Positions 2,421-46,746 of a stretch of DNA of 64,000 nucleotides are shown here, piece after piece (the first letter of the stretch is position 1; each line of letters begins with the position of its first letter). Under the pieces are notes generated by a model. The model did no database searches. It was not told the origin of the DNA and worked only from the letters and a program-made list of their open reading frames with translations. A program made the position numbers and the translations under genes. The stretch spans positions 1 through 64,000 of the forward strand of contig CANMKX010000002.1 of the NCBI GenBank assembly GCA_947498595.1, written 5' to 3'. This DNA is from an uncultured Aquimarina sp. GTDB taxonomy: Bacteria; Bacteroidota; Bacteroidia; Flavobacteriales; Flavobacteriaceae.

Positions 2421-3158
2421 TTAATGTTTTATAGAATCTCTATTTCCCTCTTGTTGAGCAATAACTTTTATTTTTATTTTCTCTACACTACTATTAACTG
2501 TATAATCTTTAAGAACATCGTTTTCAATCACTTCGCCTTTGTAAATAAAATCTTTGGTATGATTACTCAAATCAATATCAATAGTTTCTCCTATGGCATT
2601 TTTCGTTTCGAGTACCACATATATTTCTTCTCCAGTTCTTGGGCTGGCCTTTTTATTTCCCTCTAAATCTGTATAATAACATTTAACAACTTCTGGTTTC
2701 TTTTCTTCTTGTATAGGATAAGATTCACTTTCTGGTGAGATATGGCTTACATTCCATCGTTTTAAAAAATAAATCCCATAGTCTTGAATTCCTGGCGAAA
2801 TCTTAAGTATAGCTTGCATACCACTTAGTGCAGAAAATGTTTCTTCATACGATATTAAAAAAGCATCATTAAATTTATATGTTTTGGTTGCAGGATAATC
2901 AAATCCGTTTTCATAAAAACAGATTTTACCTTCTTCCATTTTATCTTTTTCTTGACCAGTATCATCTATAGAATCTTTTAACATCCAATTCAAAAAAATA
3001 TCATCGCCTCTCTCTGGAACGAAACTACATGTAAGCAATCCTCCTATTACTTCTGATGTTGGTCTTCCATTTTCACGACTAGTTTCTCTGTAATAATCTG
3101 TATCAATCCATAAAAGTTCTCGTTCTTGTTTTAGCACAAACAACTTTGCTGAAACCAT
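2421..3158 (-). CDS. tssD: T6SS tube protein TssD (Hcp-like) with C-terminal extension
   Basis: Residues 1 to about 135 match the Bacteroidota Hcp-like TssD pattern: an N-terminal strand, GRPTSEVIGGLLTCSF, LNWMLKDS, GKICFYENG, and a Y-x-E-T-F segment (YEETFSALSGMQAILKIS). In family members this folds into the hexameric ring of the T6SS inner tube. Usual TssD proteins are about 130 residues; this one has 245. The extra 90 residues (about 155-245) are a separate beta-rich domain containing GEEIYVVLETKNAIGETI, similar to a segment of the next protein. An extended Hcp followed directly by cargo fits an effector-loading adaptor. No other T6SS core genes (TssB, C, F, G, K, ClpV) are in the window, so this is an orphan module. 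Confidence 0.75.
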   Translation of the reverse strand: MVSAKLFVLKQERELLWIDTDYYRETSRENGRPTSEVIGGLLTCSFVPERGDDIFLNWMLKDSIDDTGQEKDKMEEGKICFYENGFDYPATKTYKFNDAFLISYEETFSALSGMQAILKISPGIQDYGIYFLKRWNVSHISPESESYPIQEEKKPEVVKCYYTDLEGNKKASPRTGEEIYVVLETKNAIGETIDIDLSNHTKDFIYKGEVIENDVLKDYTVNSSVEKIKIKVIAQQEGNRDSIKH

Positions 3159-3352
3159 TATAATTTTGATTTAAGTTTTATTTTTTATTTAAGATATATC
3201 ATATCCTTTATTATAATCTCAGGTTATTTGATTGAGAAAGATGTTGATTATCGATATGATTTTATACTTCTATAAATTTATGTTTTTTTTATATCTCATA
3301 AAAACATCTTACAAGTATTATTTATTGTGTAAATCGATGTTTTATATAAAAA

Positions 3353-3384
3353 AAATCACCTCTTCTTAATTGACGAGGTGATTT
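3353..3384 (-). terminator. Rho-independent terminator of lipB
   Basis: A perfect 10-bp stem (3353-3362 with 3375-3384) and 12-nt loop follow the lipB stop on the minus strand, leading into a T-run on that strand. Confidence 0.7.
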
Positions 3385-3405
3385 CATAGTACTATTTTAT
3401 TTATA

Positions 3406-4107
3406 TTATTTTATGAATTCTGCTTCAAATAATGTTTTAAAATGCTTTAATAGTTTTTCTTTTACTTCTGATGCGTTTATCTCTTTTACTCCTAATTCGA
3501 CTTGTAATGAGGTTACCGCCTTTCCTTTTATTCCGCAAGGAATTATATTATCAAAATATCCTAAATCAGCATTCACATTTAATGCAAATCCGTGCATTGT
3601 TACCCACCTACTCGCTCTTACTCCCATTGCACATATTTTTCTTGCAAACGGAGTTCCTACATCCAGCCATACTCCTGTTTCTCCATCGCTACGAGTTGCT
3701 TTTACTCCATATTCTGCTAAAGTAAGAATTACCATTTCTTCTAGAAATCGCAAATATTTATGTATGTCTGTGAAAAAGTTTTCTAAATCTAAAATTGGAT
3801 ATCCAACTATTTGTCCTGGGCCATGATAAGTTATATCGCCTCCTCTATTTATTTTATAAAAAGTCGCCCCTTTCTCTGTCAATTGCTCTTCATTAAGCAA
3901 CAAGTTACTTATATCACCACTCTTACCTAATGTATAAACATGTGGATGCTCTACAAAAAGAAAATGATTTGGAGTTTGCAACCCTGCTTGTTCTCTTCTA
4001 TTTTTAATTTTTATATCTAAAACTTCTTTAAACAAAGTTTCTTGATAATCCCACGTTTCTTTATAGTCTTTTAAACCTAGTTCTTGTAACTGTATCTCTT
4101 TATTCAT
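3406..4107 (-). CDS. lipB: Lipoyl(octanoyl) transferase LipB
   Basis: LipB moves the octanoyl group from octanoyl-ACP to the lipoyl domains of keto-acid dehydrogenases and GcvH, the first step of protein lipoylation in the cytosol. The 233-residue length is normal. Family motifs are plain: GGDITYHGPGQIVGYPILDL in the middle, RKICAMGVRASRWVTMHGFALNVN with the acyl-binding lysine, and IIPCGIKGKAVTSL with the catalytic cysteine. The gene has its own terminator and lies downstream of yqaE on the same strand. A lipoylated E2 subunit is encoded at 51.7-53.0 kb in this window, one likely client. Confidence 0.95.
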   Translation of the reverse strand: MNKEIQLQELGLKDYKETWDYQETLFKEVLDIKIKNRREQAGLQTPNHFLFVEHPHVYTLGKSGDISNLLLNEEQLTEKGATFYKINRGGDITYHGPGQIVGYPILDLENFFTDIHKYLRFLEEMVILTLAEYGVKATRSDGETGVWLDVGTPFARKICAMGVRASRWVTMHGFALNVNADLGYFDNIIPCGIKGKAVTSLQVELGVKEINASEVKEKLLKHFKTLFEAEFIK

Positions 4108-35858: not shown

Positions 35859-37742
35859 ATGTTCTTAAATAAAGCTTATGATTCAAGCATTCTTATATCT
35901 AATAATTCGGTAAAAAATAAAAACTTATTAGACATTGCGTATCAAGCGTATAAATTAGATGATACTATATTATTTAAAAAGGCAAATACTAAAGCCTATT
36001 TACTTTCTTTAAAATTAAAAGATTCTTTTGGAGTAGCTGATACTTATTGGAATTACGGAGCATTTTATTTAAAAAAGGAAAAACTTGATAGTTCTTATTA
36101 CCATTACAATAAAGCCCATGAATTATATAGTAAAATTAATCATTCATATTATGATGCTAAAATGCTATATAATATGGCTTTTATTCAATCTCACCTAAAA
36201 GATTATACAGGAAGTGAGATCTTATTATTTGAAGCTATTTCAAAGTTTAAATTATTAGAAAAAAAAATAAATCTATATAAATGTTACAATCAATTAGGGA
36301 TTAATTATAAAGATTTAAAGGAATATAAAAAAGCTATATTTTATCATAATAAAGCATTATCATTTCTTAATAAAAAAGAAAGTCATTCTTTTTACAAAGC
36401 TGGTAGTCTAAATAATATCGGTTTAATTCACCAAAAACTAGGTGATCATACTATTGCTATACAATATTTTGAGAGAGCGTTAGAGAAAAGGAACTTAGAA
36501 TTAAAAAATCCTAAATTCTACGCTCGGCTAATTGATAATATCGCTTATAATAATTTTTTAAACAATCAAACATCTAAGCTTCCTGATGCTTTTTATTCTG
36601 CATTAAAAATACGGAATAATCTTTCTGATAATCCAGGGATTGTGATGAGCAAACTACATTTAGCAGAGTATTTTGCGACTATTAAAGATACTTTATCTGC
36701 TATTAAATATGCTAAACAAGCTCATTCTTTAGCCACAGAAATTAATCATAATAGAGATAAATTAGCTTCATTATTATTATTATCTGATATAGATACTAAA
36801 AATATTGCTACTCACCTAAAAGGCTACATAACTCTAAAAGACAGTCTTCAAGATTTAGAACGAGCTACTAGAAATAAATTTACTCGTATTCGTTTTGAAA
36901 CTGATGAGTATATTCTAGAAACCAAGCGGCTTTCATTGCAAAAAATTTGGATTTCTGTTATTAGTTCTATTTTTCTAATCATTTTTATACTGGCCTATTT
37001 AATAAAAAGACAGCATTCTAGAAATAAAGAGCTTATGTTGGAAAAAAAACAACAAAAAGCAAATGAAGAAATATACGAGCTTATGTTAAAACAACATACT
37101 CAATTAGAAGAAGGGAGAATTCAAGAACGTAATAGAATTTCTGAAGAGCTTCACGATGGAGCGTTAGGTAAATTATTTGGTACTAGGTTAGGTTTAAGTT
37201 TTTTAAACGTTGATAATTCTAAAGACTTTTTTATTAAATACAATTCTTATATAGATGAATTACAGCAGGTAGAAAAAGAAATTCGTACTATTTCTCATGA
37301 ACTAAAAAATGAGGTCTTATTTTCTAGAGATGATTTTATAATCATCATTGAAAATTTATTAAAGAAGCAAAGTAAAATAGGTATGTTTCAATATAATATA
37401 ACCTATGATGAAAAAATATTTTGGGATGAAATAGACGAAAAAATAAAAATCAATCTCTATAGAATCACTCAAGAAGCACTGCAAAATATAATTAAATATG
37501 CAAATGCAGAAACTGTAGAACTTCGCTTATTTCTAATTCAAAAAAACCTTAACCTATCAATTAAGGATAATGGAATCGGTTTCAATCTCAAAAAGAAAAA
37601 AAAAGGAATCGGTTTAAATAATATGATATCGAGAGCCAAAAAATTCGACGGAAATGTTTCTTTTAATTCAACACCTAATATAGGTACAACTATTACTATA
37701 TCTATACCTATCAAAAACATTCATTATGACACAAAAATATAA
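35859..37742 (+). CDS. TPR-containing sensor histidine kinase (HisKA_3/NarL type)
   Basis: 627 residues from the first ATG. Several TPR units fill about residues 20-330 (for example YKKAIFYHNKALSFL and HTIAIQYFERALEKR). One membrane helix lies near 360-385 (WISVISSIFLIIFILAYLI), then a coiled coil. The HisKA_3 dimerisation box is RIQERNRISEELHDGALG with the phospho-acceptor His near residue 432, and an HATPase_c domain follows (QEALQNIIKYANAE, DNGIGFNLK, GIGLNNMISRA). The reading frame stays open upstream to 35703 and there encodes a lipoprotein-like signal without an ATG, so the true start may be upstream. Overlaps the regulator gene by 17 bases. Confidence 0.88.
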   Translation: MFLNKAYDSSILISNNSVKNKNLLDIAYQAYKLDDTILFKKANTKAYLLSLKLKDSFGVADTYWNYGAFYLKKEKLDSSYYHYNKAHELYSKINHSYYDAKMLYNMAFIQSHLKDYTGSEILLFEAISKFKLLEKKINLYKCYNQLGINYKDLKEYKKAIFYHNKALSFLNKKESHSFYKAGSLNNIGLIHQKLGDHTIAIQYFERALEKRNLELKNPKFYARLIDNIAYNNFLNNQTSKLPDAFYSALKIRNNLSDNPGIVMSKLHLAEYFATIKDTLSAIKYAKQAHSLATEINHNRDKLASLLLLSDIDTKNIATHLKGYITLKDSLQDLERATRNKFTRIRFETDEYILETKRLSLQKIWISVISSIFLIIFILAYLIKRQHSRNKELMLEKKQQKANEEIYELMLKQHTQLEEGRIQERNRISEELHDGALGKLFGTRLGLSFLNVDNSKDFFIKYNSYIDELQQVEKEIRTISHELKNEVLFSRDDFIIIIENLLKKQSKIGMFQYNITYDEKIFWDEIDEKIKINLYRITQEALQNIIKYANAETVELRLFLIQKNLNLSIKDNGIGFNLKKKKKGIGLNNMISRAKKFDGNVSFNSTPNIGTTITISIPIKNIHYDTKI

Positions 37743-38406
37743 CGTACTTATAGTAGATGATCATCCATTAATTATAGAAGCTTATAAAAACGCTTTGCTA
37801 TTAATCAGTGCTAATTATTCTCCCGCAATTACTTTCAAAATAGATACTGCTAATAATTGTGATACTGCTTTCGATAAAATAAAGGAAGCTAAAAAAGATC
37901 AATTAATCGACCTCATTTTTCTAGATATTAAATTACCTCCATCAAAAAACAAGAAAATCCTTTCTGGAGAAGATTTAGGTATTAAGGTTCGTGATTTAAT
38001 CCCTAAAACTAAAATCATTATTTCTACTACTTTTAACGACAATTATAGAATCCACAGTATCATTAAAAGCATAAATCCTGATGGTTTCTTAATTAAAAAC
38101 GACATTACAAAAGAAACGCTTATAGAAGGAATCTCTACCATTATTAAAGATCCTCCATATTATAGTCAAACCGTTATAAAACTAATGCGTAAAGAAATGT
38201 CTAATAATTTCACATTAGATAATATAGATAGGCAGCTTCTTTATGAATTATCTATAGGTACAAAAATGAAAGATCTACCTAACATACTCCCTCTATCGAT
38301 TGCAGGTATAGAAAAAAGAAAACGTCATATCAAAGAAGCTTTTGATCTCGACGAACAAAATGACAAAACATTAATACAAATAGCTAAAGAAAAAGGGTTT
38401 ATATAA
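37726..38406 (+). CDS. NarL-type response regulator
   Basis: 226 residues. Receiver domain with acidic pocket Asp11/Asp12 and phospho-acceptor Asp67 (DLIFLDIKLPP); switch residues in IISTTFND and a conserved Lys (FLIKNDITKETL). The C-terminal part (about 155-226) is a LuxR-like helix-turn-helix: YELSIGTKMKDLPNILPLSIAGIEKRKRHIKEAFD. Partner of the overlapping sensor kinase. It is the obvious candidate to control the oxygenase-peptide genes that start 133 bases downstream after its terminator. Confidence 0.88.
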   Translation: MTQKYNVLIVDDHPLIIEAYKNALLLISANYSPAITFKIDTANNCDTAFDKIKEAKKDQLIDLIFLDIKLPPSKNKKILSGEDLGIKVRDLIPKTKIIISTTFNDNYRIHSIIKSINPDGFLIKNDITKETLIEGISTIIKDPPYYSQTVIKLMRKEMSNNFTLDNIDRQLLYELSIGTKMKDLPNILPLSIAGIEKRKRHIKEAFDLDEQNDKTLIQIAKEKGFI

Positions 38407-38442
38407 TTTTTATCACAAAAAACATATCATTTAAAACAAAAG

Positions 38443-38468
38443 AGTAAGGATCATCCTTACTTTTTTTA
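38443..38468 (+). terminator. Terminator of the two-component pair
   Basis: 9-bp stem 38443-38451 with 38453-38461 followed by T-run, 36 nt after the regulator stop. Confidence 0.7.
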
Positions 38469-38538: not shown

Positions 38539-39804
38539 ATGCTTTCCGACGTTTCTCAGCAGATAATTCCATTTTCAGACGAATGGTGGAGTCAGTTTAA
38601 AAAAGATTCAAGTAATATGACTATCCCTATAACCGTAAAAGATGCTTTTACAGATCATGTAGATGAATTAAAAGGTTGTATTTATGAAATGTTGCAAAAT
38701 TTAAAATCTGATGAAGAAGGTTTAGCTTGGAGAGTATGGAAAGATGGAAAATTAGATTCTACTTTAAAAGATCAAATAATTAACGACCCTATACAATCTG
38801 AGAATGATTTATTAGCTTGGCAAGAACGTCACTTTAAAAACAACAAATTTGGGATCATACTCAACAATGGACAACGTTATAGTGATAATGCCAAAAGAAT
38901 AATTTCTAATTTTTTTGATCCTTTCTTAAAGAATAACGCACCATTGGGTGGTATTAATTTTTCAATTTTTATCGGTAATTATGGATGGACTCCAATAGGT
39001 ATACACGAAGATCATACAGGTTCTTTTGTAATGCATTTTCATTTAGGTCCTAACGATAAGACTATGCATATGTGGGAGCGTTCAAATTATAAAGAAATTT
39101 TAGAAGGAAAAGATAATGACATAAATCCTGAAAAATATATACCTTTTGCTGACTACACTTGTAATTTCAATCAAGGTGACATTTTCTTTATGCCATGGAA
39201 TTATTATCATATAGGAGAATCTCATGACCTTTCTTTAGGTATTACTGTTTGGTTTAACTATACAACATCTGATGGTCTTTTAAATGGTATATGGGAAAGT
39301 GGTTTAAATGAATTAACCGATTCTGATATTAGTGATAATTCTGAAGCTCTTTATATTAAAGATATTAATGATGAAAATCCTATCAATAATTTATTAAATC
39401 AACTTAACGATGATATTTTAGAAACATCGCTTGAAGAGTTCATTATTAATGAGTTAAATGATTATATCTCCGCTATAAAAAGTAATGACTGGTATGATAA
39501 CGGCGCTATTAAACATAAAAAAGATAATGTTAATCTACAAAACGATACTTTATTAATCATTAATAAATCAAAAATTCATCTCAAACAACTCGACGGAACT
39601 GTAAAGTTTTTTCATAGAGGAGATAAAGTTTCTTTTCACCATCATAATGATATGAAAGAACTTATAAACAGGATTAATGAGGGTACTGCTAAAAGTATAC
39701 ATCAACTAATTTCCGGATTATTTAATGACTGGCCTGAAGGGATAGGAATTAGAATTCTAGAAATTTTATGCGAAAATGATATTCTAAAAATCTATAAAAG
39801 CTAA
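38539..39804 (+). CDS. JmjC/ROX-like Fe(II)- and 2-oxoglutarate-dependent oxygenase, putative peptide hydroxylase A
   Basis: 421 residues, cytosolic. The double-stranded beta-helix core has NYGWTPIGIHEDHTGSFVMHFHLGP, giving H156-x-D158, and GDIFFMPWNYYHIGESHDLS with His224: the facial Fe(II) triad is complete. This resembles the cupin_4/JmjC ribosomal oxygenases (YcfD/MINA53 type), which hydroxylate Arg or His in proteins. The last about 85 residues (KIHLKQLDGTVKFFHRGDKVSFHHH and on) look like a winged-helix or wHTH domain, also present in that group. It sits in an operon with a paralogue and a repeat-containing small peptide, its probable substrate. Confidence 0.75.
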   Translation: MLSDVSQQIIPFSDEWWSQFKKDSSNMTIPITVKDAFTDHVDELKGCIYEMLQNLKSDEEGLAWRVWKDGKLDSTLKDQIINDPIQSENDLLAWQERHFKNNKFGIILNNGQRYSDNAKRIISNFFDPFLKNNAPLGGINFSIFIGNYGWTPIGIHEDHTGSFVMHFHLGPNDKTMHMWERSNYKEILEGKDNDINPEKYIPFADYTCNFNQGDIFFMPWNYYHIGESHDLSLGITVWFNYTTSDGLLNGIWESGLNELTDSDISDNSEALYIKDINDENPINNLLNQLNDDILETSLEEFIINELNDYISAIKSNDWYDNGAIKHKKDNVNLQNDTLLIINKSKIHLKQLDGTVKFFHRGDKVSFHHHNDMKELINRINEGTAKSIHQLISGLFNDWPEGIGIRILEILCENDILKIYKS

Positions 39805-39809
39805 ACATT

Positions 39810-41114
39810 ATGGAAGTACAACCTGTAAAAGAAAAAGAATTAAAATTCACTAATTCTTGGTGGAATAATTTTAATGTTAATACGAATAATTTCACTTCTC
39901 ATCATGTTAACTCAAAAGCTTTTTCTTCTTCTCAAGTAGATTATATAAGAACTCTTGTAGAAAATATTATAAAAAAAGTTACTAAAAATAAAGATCGTCA
40001 AAATTTCTTACGCATATGGAGTGATGGAAAATATGAAAAAAATCCTAGCTCTTTTTTTGCTAAACATTCAATACAAATTGACGAAACTATCCATGATTGG
40101 AAAATTCGATCCTTTCAAAATAAAGAGTTTGGATTATTCTTAAATTATGCAGAAACTCATTGCGAAGAACTTTCTTCTTTTTTAAGTCAATGCATTCAAC
40201 CATACTCAGAGCAATACGGAATACCTACTAATGGTATTAGTTCCACTATCATACTTGGAGATTACGGTTGGACTCCTTTAGGCGTTCATCGAGATCGTTT
40301 GGCAGAATATATCGTTCATTTTCATTTAGGCCCTGGAGATAAAGATATTTATGTTTGGAATCAGGAACAGGCAAAAAAATTAGGTTTTAAACATGGAGAA
40401 AAAGTAAATGACTTCGATCAATATCTAAAAAATTATTCTAAAAAATATTCTTTTAGTACTGGAGATATTTTCTCTATGCCTGGCAAATGTGTACATATTG
40501 GTAATACAAATTCTTTTTCTATAGGACTTGTATTAGAATTTAACGGGTTAACTGAAAAAGAATTACTCGACAATATGTGGTATCGAATAGGTAAAGAACT
40601 ATTTAGCTCTAATTATATTGGTCAAAAGGCAAAAATATTATCTCCTTATAGAGAAGACAACCATGAAGAGCAAATCACCGAAATTCAAAAAGGTATTAAA
40701 TATCATAATATTGATACAAAAAACACTTTAGACAAAGCTTTTAAGAACAAATTCAAAGACCACACCTATAAACTACTAAGTAATAATGGTTTTACAATGC
40801 CTCCGCATATAAATAAAAAACAATCATTATCAAAATTCAAAAAGCTATCAAGCAATAGTAATATCAAGATTACAAGTAATAGAAAAATCCTTTTCTATAC
40901 AGATAACAAGCATATAATCACATACATTAGAGGAGAAAAAATTTCTTTAAAACAACATAAAGGCATTATTCCTTTTTTTAATTCACTCAACAAAGAAAAA
41001 GAAATTTGTATTGCAAATCTTAAAACTCATTTTTTCAATGACTGGTCAGATGATGCTATAAACAAATTAATCTACCTCCTCTATAAATATAAAGGAATTC
41101 AATTTCAACTTTAG
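39810..41114 (+). CDS. JmjC/ROX-like Fe(II)- and 2-oxoglutarate-dependent oxygenase, putative peptide hydroxylase B
   Basis: 434 residues, paralogous to the preceding protein (shared W-W-N/S-x-F N-terminus, RIWSDGK/RVWKDGK, same C-terminal domain with HFFNDW/LFNDWPEG). The core has DYGWTPLGVHRDRLAEYIVHFHLGPGDKD with H160-x-D162 and DIFSMPGKCVHIGNTNSFS with His229, so it should be active. The two copies are clearly diverged, suggesting different target residues or order of action. Five bases after the first oxygenase gene; the small peptide gene follows 50 bases downstream. Confidence 0.75.
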   Translation: MEVQPVKEKELKFTNSWWNNFNVNTNNFTSHHVNSKAFSSSQVDYIRTLVENIIKKVTKNKDRQNFLRIWSDGKYEKNPSSFFAKHSIQIDETIHDWKIRSFQNKEFGLFLNYAETHCEELSSFLSQCIQPYSEQYGIPTNGISSTIILGDYGWTPLGVHRDRLAEYIVHFHLGPGDKDIYVWNQEQAKKLGFKHGEKVNDFDQYLKNYSKKYSFSTGDIFSMPGKCVHIGNTNSFSIGLVLEFNGLTEKELLDNMWYRIGKELFSSNYIGQKAKILSPYREDNHEEQITEIQKGIKYHNIDTKNTLDKAFKNKFKDHTYKLLSNNGFTMPPHINKKQSLSKFKKLSSNSNIKITSNRKILFYTDNKHIITYIRGEKISLKQHKGIIPFFNSLNKEKEICIANLKTHFFNDWSDDAINKLIYLLYKYKGIQFQL

Positions 41115-41164
41115 AAAATAGCTATTTTATATATAAATCAAATTAATTATTAAAAATCAAAATT

Positions 41165-41323
41165 ATGAGTAAAAAAGATTTAGATCAATTTTTAGGTAAA
41201 AAAACAAAGTCTCCATTAAACACTGATAAAATTTATGGAGGAACTGCCTCAAAATTAGACACTGTTCGCGTTACTGAAAGAGTAAAAGTAACTGAAAGAG
41301 TTAGAGTAACTGTAAGGAAATAA
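41165..41323 (+). CDS. Putative RiPP precursor with Gly-Gly leader and VxVTxR repeat core
   Basis: 52 codons, too short for routine gene calling. Leader MSKKDLDQFLGKKTKSPLNT continues to DKIYGG, a Gly25-Gly26 cleavage site of the kind cut by C39 peptidases. The 26-residue core begins TASKLDT and then has three hexads, VRVTER, VKVTER, VRVTVR, plus a final Lys. The core is strongly cationic with alternating hydrophobic and polar residues. It lies between two oxygenase genes and a C39-peptidase exporter on the same strand and is followed by a terminator. I infer a ribosomally made, hydroxylated and exported peptide. No known precursor family recognised. Confidence 0.72.
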   Translation: MSKKDLDQFLGKKTKSPLNTDKIYGGTASKLDTVRVTERVKVTERVRVTVRK

Positions 41324-41342
41324 TATTTCTTTATTATATGAT

Positions 41343-41380
41343 AACACTCTCTTACAGTCATGTAAGAGAGTTGTTTTTTT
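41343..41380 (+). terminator. Terminator between precursor and exporter genes
   Basis: 13-14 bp stem with one bulged base (41343-41356 with 41361-41375), loop GTCA, then T-run. Partial read-through would favour high precursor and lower exporter levels. Confidence 0.8.
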
Positions 41381-41403
41381 AACTTAAAAGAAATTTCTTT
41401 TTA

Positions 41404-41411
41404 TTCCTTTG
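41404..41411 (+). promoter_or_regulatory. TTCCTTTG promoter-like element of the exporter gene
   Basis: Same octamer as at 38503-38510, 32 nt before the exporter ATG and after the terminator. It suggests the exporter has its own coordinated promoter. Confidence 0.35.
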
Positions 41412-41443
41412 CTTTATTTATTAGATCACATACATGAAACCTT

Positions 41444-43627
41444 ATGCTACATAAATTCCCTTCATATATACAATCCGAGGCTAAAGATTGCGGACCATCT
41501 TGTTTAAAGATGATTGCTCAATATTATGGTAAAAAAATAGATATAGAGCATCTTCGTGTTGTAAGTGAAACAACTAGAGAAGGAACTTCACTTACAGGTT
41601 TAATAAATGCCTCTGATTCAATAGGAATTAAAGCTGTAGCTATAAAAGAAAATTTTAAAACACTTAAAAACGATATACTCTTACCAGTTATCGCTCATTG
41701 GAATCAAGAGCATTTTGTAGTTATTTATAAAATCAGTTCCAAATACGTCTATATTTCTGATCCTGAACTCGGTAAAGTGAAGTATAAAACCTCCTTTTTC
41801 TTAAATAATTGGCTCAATACAAGCAATGATGAAAAACAAGAAGGCATTTTACTTTTATTAAAACCTAAAAAGGATTTTTTTTCAAAAAACATCAACTCTA
41901 TAAAAAAGAATTCTTCTAAGAATTTTCTTATTAAATACTTAAAACAACATAGAAAAACTTTTATCAATATTAGTTTATTAGTATTATTAACGAGTATCTT
42001 AGAGTTAGCATTTCCCTTTATAACACAAAAAATTATAGATTCTGGAGTTTCAACAAAAGACATTCCTTTTATATACTTGGCTGCTGTAGCATATATTACA
42101 GTTTTTATAGGTTATAAAATTGCTCATATCATTAGAAATTGGATAGTTATTAAGCTTAGCATGAAATTTAATATTCAATTAATTTCCGATTTTATTGTGA
42201 AACTTACTTTACTCCCAATTTCGTATTATGACTCAAAAATAACTGGAGATATTTTTCAACGTATTGGAGATCATGATAATCTTGAAAAATTCTTTACTTC
42301 TAATTCAATAACCGCTTTATTCTCTATACTTAGCATAATAATATTCAGCGGGTTATTCCTATGGTATGATATTTCTATTTTTATCATTTTTCTTTTAGGT
42401 ACAAGTATCCATATCACATGGGTTTCGTTGTTTTTCAATAAAAGAAAAGTCTTAGATTTTAAATATTTCTCTATAAAAAGTAAAGAGAGTAATAAAATCA
42501 TAGAACTAATACATGGAATGCAAGATATCAAGCTTAACGGTTATGAGAATCAAAAAAAAGAAGAATGGGAAAAAATCAGAACAGAGCTATATAAAAGAGA
42601 TATGGAGAGTATGAAAATTGAGCAATATCAATTAGATGGTGCTTCATTTATCAACGAAATGAAAAATATTGGTATTATCATTTTAGCTGCTATATTAGTT
42701 GTTAATCAACAAATGTCATTTGGTACCTTATTAGCTATTTCATATGTTATTGGTCATCTTAGTTCTCCTGTCGAAAAATTAGTTGTCTTTCTTAATAATA
42801 TTCAAGACGTACGATTAAGTTTCAGGCGAATCATGGAAATTCACAATAAAAACAATGAAGGAAATAATAATAAACTCTCAAAAAACTTTGCTATTGATAA
42901 CATTATTTTTAACAATGTTAGTTTTAGATATTCTGGAAGTTCAAAAAATACTTTAAATAATTTATCCTTTACAATTCCTCATAAAAAAGTCACTGCAATA
43001 GTTGGCCCTAGCGGTAGTGGAAAAACAACTTTATTAAAATTATTATTAAAATTTTACGAAACTAACACTGGTACTATTTCTCTAGGAGAAACACCTATTA
43101 ATCATCTAGATTTTGATACCTGGAGAGATAAGTTTGGAGTAGTAATGCAAGAAGGTTATATCTTTAATGACACCATAGCTAATAACATTATTATTGCAAA
43201 CAAAAAAAATGATTCGCTATTACAAAAATCATGCGAAACTGCTAATATACATAACTTTATAAACGATCTCCCTCTTAAATATGATACAAAAATTGGTAAT
43301 GAAGGTTTAGATATCAGTACTGGTCAAAAACAACGTATTCTTATGGCGAGAGCTATTTATAAAAACCCTGACTTTTTATTATTCGATGAAGCAACTTCTG
43401 CTCTTGATACCAAAAATGAAAGTGAAATAACAAAAAATCTAGAGCAATTGTTTAAAAATAAAACAGTGATTTTAATCGCCCACAGATTAAGTACTGTTAA
43501 AAACGCTGATCAAATAATTGTACTATCTAAAAATGGTGAAATTGTTGAAACTGGTACACATGATGAACTTATATACCTCAATGGTTATTATCATGGTTTA
43601 GTAAAAAATCAACTTGAATTAGCATAA
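41444..43627 (+). CDS. Peptidase-containing ABC transporter (PCAT) with C39 domain
   Basis: 727 residues. The N-terminal C39 peptidase has Cys16 in QSEAKDCGPSCLKMIA, His90 in HWNQEHFVVIY and Asp106 in ISDPELGK, so it should cleave after Gly-Gly leaders. Six membrane helices span about 165-450. The nucleotide-binding domain has Walker A (GPSGSGKTTLLKLLLKF), signature DISTGQKQRILMARAIY (ISTGQ instead of LSGGQ), Walker B FLLFDEATSALD and the H-loop AHRLSTV. It trims and exports double-glycine peptides across the inner membrane. The precursor at 41165 and the two Cys-rich peptides downstream are likely cargo. No accessory HlyD-type protein is in the window. Confidence 0.92.
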   Translation: MLHKFPSYIQSEAKDCGPSCLKMIAQYYGKKIDIEHLRVVSETTREGTSLTGLINASDSIGIKAVAIKENFKTLKNDILLPVIAHWNQEHFVVIYKISSKYVYISDPELGKVKYKTSFFLNNWLNTSNDEKQEGILLLLKPKKDFFSKNINSIKKNSSKNFLIKYLKQHRKTFINISLLVLLTSILELAFPFITQKIIDSGVSTKDIPFIYLAAVAYITVFIGYKIAHIIRNWIVIKLSMKFNIQLISDFIVKLTLLPISYYDSKITGDIFQRIGDHDNLEKFFTSNSITALFSILSIIIFSGLFLWYDISIFIIFLLGTSIHITWVSLFFNKRKVLDFKYFSIKSKESNKIIELIHGMQDIKLNGYENQKKEEWEKIRTELYKRDMESMKIEQYQLDGASFINEMKNIGIIILAAILVVNQQMSFGTLLAISYVIGHLSSPVEKLVVFLNNIQDVRLSFRRIMEIHNKNNEGNNNKLSKNFAIDNIIFNNVSFRYSGSSKNTLNNLSFTIPHKKVTAIVGPSGSGKTTLLKLLLKFYETNTGTISLGETPINHLDFDTWRDKFGVVMQEGYIFNDTIANNIIIANKKNDSLLQKSCETANIHNFINDLPLKYDTKIGNEGLDISTGQKQRILMARAIYKNPDFLLFDEATSALDTKNESEITKNLEQLFKNKTVILIAHRLSTVKNADQIIVLSKNGEIVETGTHDELIYLNGYYHGLVKNQLELA

Positions 43628-44694: not shown

Positions 44695-44889
44695 ATGAAA
44701 AATCTAACAAAGATTACTGGAGTAAAAATTCTTTCTAAAAAAGATCAAAACAAAATCCATGGTAATGGTTGGCCATTAAGTTGTATGATGCGTGGCAACA
44801 AATGCTGCGAACGTTGGGGAGGGTCTATGACTTGCGAAGAAGGAGAATGTATTTTGAATTCGTTTTGCCATTGGTACAATTTACCTTAA
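44695..44889 (+). CDS. Six-cysteine peptide with bacteriocin-like leader, copy 1
   Basis: 64 residues from ATG 44695 (MKNLTKITGVKILSKKDQNK, then IHGNG). The ATG at 44671 adds eight residues that its homologue at 44963 lacks. The leader matches the Bacteroidota pattern MKN-x-(K/T)-x(3)-G-(V/I)-x-ILSK-x-DQ-x(4)-G, related to double-glycine leaders. Cysteines are at 30, 37, 38, 47, 52 and 58: C-x6-CC-x8-C-x4-C-x5-C, followed by HWY. It is likely a secreted disulfide-rich peptide, processed near residue 23-24. The nearby C39 exporter is a candidate. Confidence 0.7.
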   Translation: MKNLTKITGVKILSKKDQNKIHGNGWPLSCMMRGNKCCERWGGSMTCEEGECILNSFCHWYNLP

Positions 44890-44962: not shown

Positions 44963-45145
44963 ATGAAAAACATCAAATCATTAAAAGGAATTCAAATCTT
45001 ATCAAAAAACGATCAAAAAACTCTTAATGGAGCTGCAATAGGTCGTGAAGGTTGCATTCAACGCGGACCTAAATGTTGCACTTCTCAAAACCCTAGAGAT
45101 TGTGATTACGGAAGATGTAACGGAAGATTTTGTTTATGGTACTAA
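44963..45145 (+). CDS. Six-cysteine peptide with bacteriocin-like leader, copy 2
   Basis: 60 residues. Leader MKNIKSLKGIQILSKNDQKT then LNGAA, with a Gly-Ala type processing site. The mature part REGCIQRGPKCC and on has cysteines 31, 38, 39, 47, 52, 57: C-x6-CC-x7-C-x4-C-x4-C, ending LWY. It shares the exact Cys framework and the C-terminal (H/L)WY with the upstream copy while other residues differ, the sign of a fast-evolving paired toxin or bacteriocin. Downstream on the same strand is the P-loop NTPase gene. Confidence 0.7.
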   Translation: MKNIKSLKGIQILSKNDQKTLNGAAIGREGCIQRGPKCCTSQNPRDCDYGRCNGRFCLWY

Positions 45146-45294: not shown

Positions 45295-46746
45295 ATGCAA
45301 TTAGACATTTCTATTGAAGCAAAACGCTTTAACGAACATCTCAATATCGAGAATAACGATCGTATTATTTTTTCTGGAATTTTTGGCATTGGTAAAACTT
45401 ATTTTCTTAAAGAATTTTTTAAAGCTCGAGATGAGTATGAAGTCTTTAACATTTCTCCCGTAAATTACTCTATATCGTCTAACGATGATGTTATTAATTA
45501 TATCAAATATGACCTTGCGTTTCAACTCTTAGGAAAAAATGTCGTCTTTGAAAAATTAGATATATCTAAAATTGTCGCTACAGAATACTATATAAAAAAC
45601 AATGCTCTTGAAACTATTTCGACCCTAGCTAAAGGTTTAGGTAAAATAGGTAAATCAATCATTGAGGTAGTAGAACCTGTCAAAACATTTAAAGATAAAG
45701 TCGAAGCATATCAAGAAGAACATTCAACAAATGAAAAAAAAGATATTGTAACATTTCTTGAACAAATTAGAGATCAAAATGGTTCTATCTATGAAGAAGA
45801 TATGATAACACAACTAGTTGGTCAATTAATAAATTCATCAAAAAAATTTGATGATAGTGGTAAAATAACTAAACAAACCATATTAGTAATTGATGATTTA
45901 GATCGTTTGGATCCGGATCATATTTTTAGGATACTAAATATTTTTGCTTGCCATTTCGATTTAGATACTAGCGATGAGAATAAATTTAATCTAGACAAAA
46001 TTATTTTGGTTTGTGATATGGATAATATCCGTAAAATATTTCATCATCGTTATGGAGTTGGTGTAGATTTTAATGGATACCTTGATAAGTTTTATAGCCA
46101 TGAAATCTTTTATTATGACAATAAAGTTATCATTAAAAAGAATATTGAAAATATATTGGCTTCTATCACTCTTATGAAAAATATGGATCGTTATTTAAAT
46201 TTTAAAAATCCAGGATTAGTTTCCGTTCGTTTGTTAACTGGTATTATTGAAGGTATGATTCATTTAAATCTATTAAATCTAAGGTCTTTTATTAAATTTA
46301 ATAATAAAGAATTATCTATAACTCCTTATTCATTCATTAAAAACGAATATAATGCTCAAGATTCTAATTTTAATTACAATTTAATTCTCATCTTCGATTT
46401 ATTATGTAAAATCTTAGGTTCTCCTGAAAATCTAAAAATTATTCTCGATAAATTATTATCTCATCCTTCTTTAAAAATTCCTGTAGAATTATCTGGTGAT
46501 TTATTAACTTTAATTAATCTCAGAAAACATAATAATATTTCTTCTACTTACGAATATATTAATAAAGATGAAGATATTATTATTAATTACACAATTCAAA
46601 ATTATGGTCATACAAGAAGTCAAGAAACTGCTCGTATAGATAAAATATTTTATTATACATCAAAAAAACCTAGAGTTGGTTTTCCTTTCAACAAACTTTT
46701 AAAAGAAGCTTTCGACGAATACTTAAACTTAGAAATAGTTAGTTGA
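45295..46746 (+). CDS. KAP-like P-loop NTPase
   Basis: 483 residues. Walker A is GIFGIGKTYFL (Lys34), Walker B is ILVIDDLDRLDPDHIFRIL (Asp200-Asp203), the DD-x-D-R-L pattern typical of KAP-family P-loop NTPases. A long insertion sits between them (about 45-190). The C-terminal part is helical and unrecognised. No membrane helices are visible, unlike many KAP proteins. KAP NTPases occur in mobile islands and defence loci. Position after the Cys-rich peptides is suggestive but the 150-base gap leaves a functional link open. Confidence 0.65.
   Translation: MQLDISIEAKRFNEHLNIENNDRIIFSGIFGIGKTYFLKEFFKARDEYEVFNISPVNYSISSNDDVINYIKYDLAFQLLGKNVVFEKLDISKIVATEYYIKNNALETISTLAKGLGKIGKSIIEVVEPVKTFKDKVEAYQEEHSTNEKKDIVTFLEQIRDQNGSIYEEDMITQLVGQLINSSKKFDDSGKITKQTILVIDDLDRLDPDHIFRILNIFACHFDLDTSDENKFNLDKIILVCDMDNIRKIFHHRYGVGVDFNGYLDKFYSHEIFYYDNKVIIKKNIENILASITLMKNMDRYLNFKNPGLVSVRLLTGIIEGMIHLNLLNLRSFIKFNNKELSITPYSFIKNEYNAQDSNFNYNLILIFDLLCKILGSPENLKIILDKLLSHPSLKIPVELSGDLLTLINLRKHNNISSTYEYINKDEDIIINYTIQNYGHTRSQETARIDKIFYYTSKKPRVGFPFNKLLKEAFDEYLNLEIVS

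Follow-up and report, generated by a model that had tools for sequence, protein, structure and literature searches.

The 64,000 nucleotides analysed here (the window) are positions 1 to 64,000 of contig CANMKX010000002.1, from an uncultured Aquimarina sp. (assembly GCA_947498595.1), and they carry a set of four genes on the forward strand: two tandem oxygenases resembling the ROX ribosomal oxygenases, a short peptide with a Gly-Gly (GG) leader, and a C39-peptidase ABC exporter. This set probably constitutes a secreted-peptide pathway similar to those of ribosomally synthesized and post-translationally modified peptides (RiPPs), in which ROX-like oxygenases, guided by the leader, would hydroxylate polar side chains that recur in the core, followed by cleavage and export through the C39 transporter. 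This reading is favoured because the genes are linked, the leader is shared, the type of core is matched to the enzyme, and the cores are repetitive. An earlier note on this DNA had described the four genes side by side, and all of them were found where it had placed them:

38539-39804, forward strand: OXA, a ROX-like JmjC (cupin) Fe(II)/2-oxoglutarate (2OG) oxygenase of 421 amino acids (aa) with a C-terminal winged-helix domain
39810-41114, forward strand: OXB, a divergent second ROX-like oxygenase of 434 aa, with the iron triad kept according to alignments
41165-41323, forward strand: precursor peptide of 52 aa, with the leader at 41165-41242, ending in GG, and the core at 41243-41320, TASKLDTVRVTERVKVTERVRVTVRK
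41444-43627, forward strand: C39-peptidase ABC exporter of 727 aa, with Pfam matches to Peptidase_C39 (8.7e-35), ABC_membrane and ABC_tran

The gaps measure 5 bases between OXA and OXB, 50 bases between OXB and the peptide gene, and 120 bases between the peptide gene and the transporter. The precursor is gene-encoded and consists of a leader and a core, and a modifying enzyme is encoded with it, as in RiPP systems; its GG site and the C39-ABC exporter are those of a GG/C39 exported peptide, cleavage itself being predicted. A Pfam scan of 10 window proteins found no ATP-grasp ligase beside the precursor, as a graspetide would have. The window core holds no Cys, for which reason the identity of a class II, Cys-rich bacteriocin was rejected.

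Homologous loci, 65 in number, were gathered by one pattern-based scan of 84,980 species genomes and assigned by best BLAST hit to a window-like clade I (39 loci) or to a clade II (26 loci, L057-L083 except L070). The 14 clade II rows used in a quick tree form one side of a branch with a Shimodaira-Hasegawa-like approximate likelihood ratio support of 100. A GG peptide with the common leader is found in 32/39 clade I versus 0/26 clade II loci (Fisher 5e-12, on related loci that are not independent). An ABC transporter like that of the window (>400 aa, BLAST) occurs in 33/39 and 0/26 loci, respectively; with the N-terminal cysteine motif of C39 (D/E-C-G), the count is 31/39 versus 0/26 (Fisher 2e-11, again on related, non-independent loci), since the ABC genes of L054 and L055 are devoid of this motif. 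The transporter of L031, a 252-aa fragment at a contig end, was scored as missing. Transporter and GG peptide are both present in 29 clade I loci. Clade I is represented in a number of Bacteroidota genera and also in Proteobacteria (Chromobacterium, Paucibacter, and Massilia, among others), and with this recurrence across genera the set goes beyond chance. The same note had offered, as a result that would count against it, homologues sitting beside unrelated genes without a GG peptide; this is not the case in clade I, but it holds for clade II, and the notion that all homologues are RiPP enzymes was rejected in view of these 26 loci without such a peptide or window-like transporter. In this Bacteroidota sister clade, the commonest other neighbour family was counted in 5/26 loci.

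Counts by taxonomic rank, each including the own genome, gave 8/52 genomes of the genus at E<=1e-10 (two of them clade II, one unassignable), 7/299 of the family at E<=1e-5, and 2/395 of the phylum at E<=1e-40. C39 exporters 35-49% identical to that of the window adjoin GG-leader Cys-rich peptides elsewhere, and among 25 transporter loci besides the window's, a family oxygenase was found only in the clade I loci L100 and L108. The same genome encodes another ABC transporter of C39 type (51581-53776 of C1), which shares 47% identity with that of the window.

The oxygenases themselves had been called JmjC/ROX-like with a complete H-x-D...H triad, and both parts of this assignment can be followed in the data. 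The triad is present in OXA (H156, D158, H224) and in OXB, which are 25-26% identical to each other, and in the alignment of clade I rows it is conserved at 40/41, 41/41, and 40/41, respectively; clade II oxygenases have H-x-E...H in 11/14 rows. The OXA AlphaFold model (predicted local distance difference test score 88.7) matches the ROX-type JmjC hydroxylases YcfD, NO66, and MINA53 along its length, with the JmjC (cupin) fold and C-terminal winged helix that characterize ROX/JmjC_2 proteins. The C-terminal elements of the model follow in the order strands 347-351, 354-359, and 362-367, then helices 370-380, 387-391, and 402-412; this order would suit a leader-binding domain of the PqqD kind, but the winged helix of ROX aligns with the same elements. 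The structure predicted was that of OXA, OXB being assigned by alignment. The Pfam search was less favourable: OXA scored 13.3 bits against the cut-off of 22 for JmjC_2 (PF08007) and OXB gave no JmjC match, and therefore the JmjC assignment rests on the fold and on intermediate relatives, 16/55 family rows matching PF08007 at E<=0.01 (best 2.1e-23). In a profile search by sequence against the PDB, JmjC matches were weak (E 0.43 to 2), and those to ribosome-recycling factor were attributed to chance. In the Kordia locus L056, homologues of OXA and OXB stand in the window order on a contig that ends before a peptide position. The homologue at the OXB position (2720-4033) is devoid of both iron histidines and, from its sequence, is likely a pseudo-enzyme partner.

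The precursors share a leader with a consensus of roughly P-x-x-FLG-x-K-x-LSPLEQ-x-KLxGG. For the leader profile, two false seed peptides were removed by eye, and four precursors and the window peptide were added by hand; this profile gave no match at E<=1 in the clade II sequence (418 kb). Aligned directly, the window leader resembles those of L049 and L051 (Aquimarina agarilytica and A. spongiae), with single-pair E values of 9e-8 and 2e-6, and these two leaders also adjoin an oxygenase gene. The NCBIfam leader model NF047798 had no match anywhere, the controls being likewise silent, and NCBIfam offered no family for the three precursors, sm124, sm167, and the Streptomyces and Nostoc peptides that were tried. 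The peptide had been expected to be conserved among relatives if real: leader and place are indeed kept, while the cores diverge, many of them still being repetitive.

The window core, RVTERVKVTERVRVTVRK, is a low-complexity sequence of RVTE type, and its composition entropy is lower than in stretches of equal length drawn at random from neighbouring proteins (p = 0.009). Elsewhere, Gln runs of 6-17 residues are found in Altibacter, Kordia algicida, Aquimarina aggregata, Chryseobacterium, Riemerella, and a Chromobacterium; KKKEKKK-type cores in Zobellia, Tenacibaculum, Aquimarina, and Cruoricaptor; HHHDHD and HVHVH cores in Chitinophaga and Chromobacterium, with H/D cores also in Paucibacter; KETVKETVTET-like cores in Chryseobacterium and Pedobacter; a core VRQQVVQQVQRV in Chryseobacterium; and a KVKVKVKVKIK core in another genome of the genus. 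Cores of VQR type are among these repetitive sequences. Compared with same-length windows of proteins from these loci, 29/46 unique cores have low entropy at p<0.05 (L020 was left out of the core statistics owing to masked bases), as opposed to 0/8 control cores, which were chosen as Cys-rich from small open reading frames (ORFs) of the window and of the transporter loci, the remaining small ORFs of the latter being left aside. Over 47 cores, self-identity is in excess at lags 1-4 (p at the floor of 0.0005), weak or absent at lags 5 and 6 (p 0.12 and 0.057), and absent at lags 7 and 8; with the 40 non-Q cores, it stands out at lags 1-4 and not at 5-8. Gln is enriched 3.3-fold and Val 2.8-fold, and Trp is absent. 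By their pattern, some of the cores are reminiscent of peptides that form beta-strands or assemble by themselves. Beta-alternation as a general rule was nevertheless rejected, as the longest alternating runs, when summed, exceed those of shuffled sequences (222 versus 193.9, p 0.002) but the number of switches does not (380 versus 388.8, p 0.78); individually, 6/47 cores alternate between hydrophobic and polar residues at p<0.05, the window core reaching p 0.11. Simple codon slippage is a less likely origin of the polyglutamine (polyQ) cores, because CAA and CAG are mixed in the tracts, although expansion remains compatible with mixed codons.

Core type largely follows the phylogeny of the enzymes. 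The alignment, second model, and tree were made from 55 of the 72 oxygenase rows listed (ORFs of 380-470 aa); the other 17, near-duplicates for the most part, were left out along with the edge-cut L052. The tree was built quickly, and because some of its branches are long (L054, L055, L056, and OXB), the place of OXB in it is unsure. Core labels require 14 changes on this tree versus 36.7 when shuffled, a comparison in which the labels for clade II and for the absence of a peptide are counted as well and which is inflated by near-copies. When the labels are considered one at a time, H, Q, and KE change twice each versus 10.2, 6.7, and 3.9 times in shuffles, and KETV is less clustered (3 versus 3.9). 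H/D cores are accompanied by at least two oxygenase genes in 7/7 loci. Four of these loci (L025, L026, L029, and L031) contribute a pair of rows to the tree, and the two members of each pair fall into different subclades, the same two in every case. In Chromobacterium vaccinii (L031), the polyQ peptide adjoins a single oxygenase of its own, from one of these two subclades. The other peptide loci with two oxygenases are the window and L043 (Pedobacter) only.

These patterns bear on a different explanation, in which a cellular protein, such as a ribosomal one in the case of ROX, is the substrate of the oxygenases, and the GG peptide resembles a bacteriocin, stays unmodified, and merely shares the exporter locus. 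The closest folds are indeed ribosomal oxygenases, the sister clade II does without such a peptide, and a short way downstream, the window encodes two small Cys-rich peptides whose leaders resemble those of bacteriocins. We nevertheless consider it unlikely, since the clade I linkage spans Bacteroidota and Proteobacteria, core type tracks the oxygenase phylogeny, and the H/D cores go with multiple oxygenase genes.

In the pathway leading to a modified secreted peptide, the C-terminal winged-helix domain of the oxygenase would hold the leader of FLG-x-LSPLE-GG type, a role suggested by the nature of the wing domain; Pfam scans of the window proteins and family rows gave no match to the PqqD family (PF05402). 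The JmjC active site would then hydroxylate the repeated polar side chains of the low-complexity core, as its fold, triad, and precedents suggest. The targets would probably be Arg or Lys in the window peptide, and may be His/Asp, Lys, or Gln in its relatives. OXB may add another residue specificity or form a heterodimer with OXA. Finally, the C39 domain of the transporter is predicted to cut after GG, upon which the peptide would be exported.

The enzymes could also cross-link the repeats oxidatively or desaturate them, rather than simply hydroxylating them. Macrocyclisation by 2OG enzymes has reportedly been described for RiPPs, in one paper known by its title. Repeat-core RiPP clusters with an iron/2OG enzyme do exist, such as the Tvg cluster, according to the available part of PMC11002830. 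On the other hand, the known JmjC/cupin RiPP enzymes hydroxylate, as far as the available parts of PMC12707348 and PMC12257519 tell, and the polyQ and KE cores have no obvious acceptor for a cross-link, which makes this chemistry distinctly unlikely.

A far branch of the family was collected from plasmids, where a search returned 20 records, from which 16 loci besides that of Bergeyella were taken (2 Nostoc, 12 Streptomyces, and 2 Pantoea; H8, H9, and H13 were left out). Identity is 21-27% for the matches in Nostoc and Streptomyces. In these two genera, the oxygenase gene is preceded by that of a short peptide containing 4-10 (LKxGxRPD/G) repeats in 2/2 and 11/12 loci, respectively (L121, L122, L125-L127, L129, and L131-L137, the repeat frame of L137 being split). 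Partners of other kinds (desaturase, amidinotransferase, DUF3865, arginine deiminase) are present in most Streptomyces loci, and the gene tables of the far-branch loci name no C39 gene.

Several observations speak against hydroxylation of a dedicated repeat peptide as the function of this family. Clade II has no GG peptide in any locus, and thus not every family member is a RiPP enzyme. Within clade I, seven loci are without the peptide: in L028 and L052, the match lies at the end of a contig, L056 is on a short contig, and the genome of L044 is frameshifted, whereas contig ends do not account for the absence in L054, L055, and L084; the ABC genes of L054 and L055 are those without the C39 cysteine motif. 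The window leader is divergent, scoring just E = 0.084 when left out of the profile, and it is not found at E<=1 when the two Aquimarina leaders are left out too; its assignment leans on its position and on these two relatives. The cores of L049 and L051, its nearest leader relatives, are not of low complexity (p 0.23 and 0.46), and 17/46 unique cores miss p<0.05 for low entropy. In the far branch, both Pantoea loci and one Streptomyces locus have no LKxGxRPD repeat peptide. Furthermore, there is no known precedent for Gln hydroxylation by a JmjC enzyme.

An alternative role for the modified peptides would be metal chelation, the hydroxylated His/Asp-rich cores being metallophores re-imported via an OMP_b-brl_3 barrel. 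The H/D cores of Chitinophaga, Chromobacterium, and Paucibacter, together with an OMP_b-brl_3 cluster gene found in 18/39 clade I versus 0/26 clade II loci (three members were checked with Pfam), are in its favour. The polyQ, KE, VQR, and window RVTE cores are, however, poor metal ligands, and the barrel was found neither among the 10 window proteins scanned nor in the H/D loci of Proteobacteria. This role is very unlikely: as a general function it was rejected, because polyQ, KE, and VQR cores bind metal poorly, and OMP_b-brl_3 was likewise rejected as an obligatory partner, being present in only 18/39 clade I loci.

Four further elements of the window lie upstream of OXA or between the genes of the set:

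35859-37742, forward strand: sensor histidine kinase with tetratricopeptide repeats (Pfam TPR_12, HisKA_3, HATPase_c), a probable regulator outside the coordinates of the set (38539-43627)
37726-38406, forward strand: response regulator (Pfam Response_reg), a probable regulator
38438-38466, forward strand: terminator-like hairpin between the response regulator and OXA, from a pattern scan alone
41346-41371, forward strand: terminator-like hairpin between precursor and transporter, with an 11 bp stem and a T tract, a possible attenuator, from a pattern scan alone

The pattern scan counted 5 terminator-like sites in 10.4 kb versus 2.2 +- 1.7 in shuffles, and a scan for sigma-70 patterns stayed at chance level (75 versus 68.6 +- 9.0). 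The two-component system just upstream may control the expression of the gene set. Histidine kinase homologues are 49% identical in L020 and L021, with pieces at 34-41% in L036, and response regulator homologues 64-65% identical in L020/L021 and 42% in L036. Regulators of LuxR-PAS type lie near the cluster in eight other loci (L038-L042, L045, L046, and L050), six of which also carry a ThiF-like gene and a gene of ~227 aa, the L050 member weakly matching FeeM/autoinducer synthase. Such neighbours could mean that the set serves signalling between cells, the peptide being the signal and the two-component system that immediately precedes the set in the window its sensor. This is highly improbable, since the regulators are not conserved across the clade, and a specific signal would not be expected to consist of repeats that vary in type.

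Other partners accompany the presumed hydroxylation and export genes in subsets of clade I. The sm124 family (116-133 aa) occurs in eight loci (L020-L024, L027, L037, and L053), namely in 7/8 loci with a Q run of at least 6 versus 1/31 of the others; the loci belong mostly to one enzyme clade and are not independent. In L053, sm124 is present with a Q-rich core, and the oxygenase lies in another part of the tree. The one sm124 member scanned had no Pfam match, and three members begin, by eye, with a signal-peptide-like stretch. As a general partner, sm124 was rejected: it is nearly confined to Q loci, and the polyQ locus L031 does without it. The Bergeyella porcorum plasmid pQD2021 (L120, 5074-9600) carries a decayed polyQ cluster, in which the precursor, with 18 Gln, is intact but the genes for the oxygenase and the C39 transporter are in pieces, and also encodes a small protein weakly similar to sm124 (single-pair E 0.003). 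HlyD-like partners are found in five Proteobacteria loci and in L049.

A more speculative view, which we hold to be rather doubtful, is that the exported hydroxylated low-complexity peptides (polyQ, KE, (KV)n, VT, HD) assemble extracellularly into a beta-sheet or amyloid-like material, the hydroxyls tuning solubility until cleavage and export. In this view, bacteria would deliberately produce polyglutamine and keep it in check by means of a dedicated family of JmjC enzymes and, where the locus is of polyQ type, of a small partner protein.

Additional genes were seen beside family oxygenases: weak ATP-grasp and SPASM matches in L049 (9384-15150), ATP-grasp-like N-termini, by eye alone, in L055 (9177-11017), and an Asp/Arg beta-hydroxylase gene (2.6e-17) in L053 (6870-7484). 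In the window, the two small Cys-rich peptides are encoded at 44695-44889 and 44963-45145 on the forward strand, 1.1-1.3 kb downstream of the C39 transporter, which perhaps exports them too. Their leaders end in GN and GA, not GG, and the NCBIfam leader match of the second falls below the cut-off. A KAP-family P-loop NTPase gene follows directly 3' (45295-46746, forward strand).

With the ROX ribosomal oxygenases (YcfD/RoxA, NO66, and MINA53; JmjC_2, PF08007), the present enzymes share the JmjC fold, the C-terminal winged helix along the whole length, and the H-x-D...H triad. They differ by their low identity to solved structures (~10-14%), their linkage to a GG peptide and a C39 exporter, and their substrate, which is probably a dedicated secreted peptide. 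Among RiPP enzymes of JmjC/cupin type, BipG and PbsQ hydroxylate precursors by assay, BpmG being predicted to do so, according to the available parts of PMC12707348 and PMC12257519. There, a JmjC or cupin-type enzyme also acts on a ribosomal precursor, but on one ornithine made from Arg, and with partners that are multinuclear non-heme iron-dependent oxidases, radical S-adenosylmethionine (SAM) enzymes, and arginases, whereas a GG/C39 route and repetitive cores are found here. RiPP recognition element-like domains fused to JmjC have also been described (mSystems 2025, PMC12710340), the closest bacterial JmjC homologues (~30% identity) standing in RiPP-like contexts; in the available text, the section on these homologues names no family, leader, or core, and C39, cupin, and ROX do not appear. 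The polycyclopropylglycine RiPP (Tvg; PMC11002830) has Thr-Val-Gly-Gly repeats and a cluster with a radical SAM and an iron/2OG enzyme. The repetitive core is common to both systems, but the chemistry described there is that of the radical SAM enzyme, and its available text mentions no C39 or GG leader. The GG-leader Cys-rich peptides beside related C39 transporters use the same kind of exporter, but have Cys-rich cores and a different leader. Oxygenase terms were not found in PMC8939145 or PMC10352776, and searches of open PMC papers gave no description of this combination of leader, low-complexity core, and C39, preprints and most subscription papers being outside this scope. The novelty claimed in the earlier note thus stands in part: the peptide class and the gene set appear new, while an enzyme of this type in a RiPP is not, given BipG, PbsQ, and the RiPP-like contexts noted in the available part of PMC12710340.

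If the proposed pathway is true, it would add a RiPP family in which ROX-like JmjC hydroxylases are guided by a leader to simple repeats, polyglutamine among them, and connect the ribosomal oxygenases with the biosynthesis of secreted peptides. As the residues of the cores correspond to the clades of the enzymes, the family offers a natural collection from which the residue specificity of JmjC enzymes (R/K, H, D, Q) could be read. Should Gln or repeated Lys/Arg be hydroxylated, these enzymes would also be tools for decorating repeat peptides and materials.

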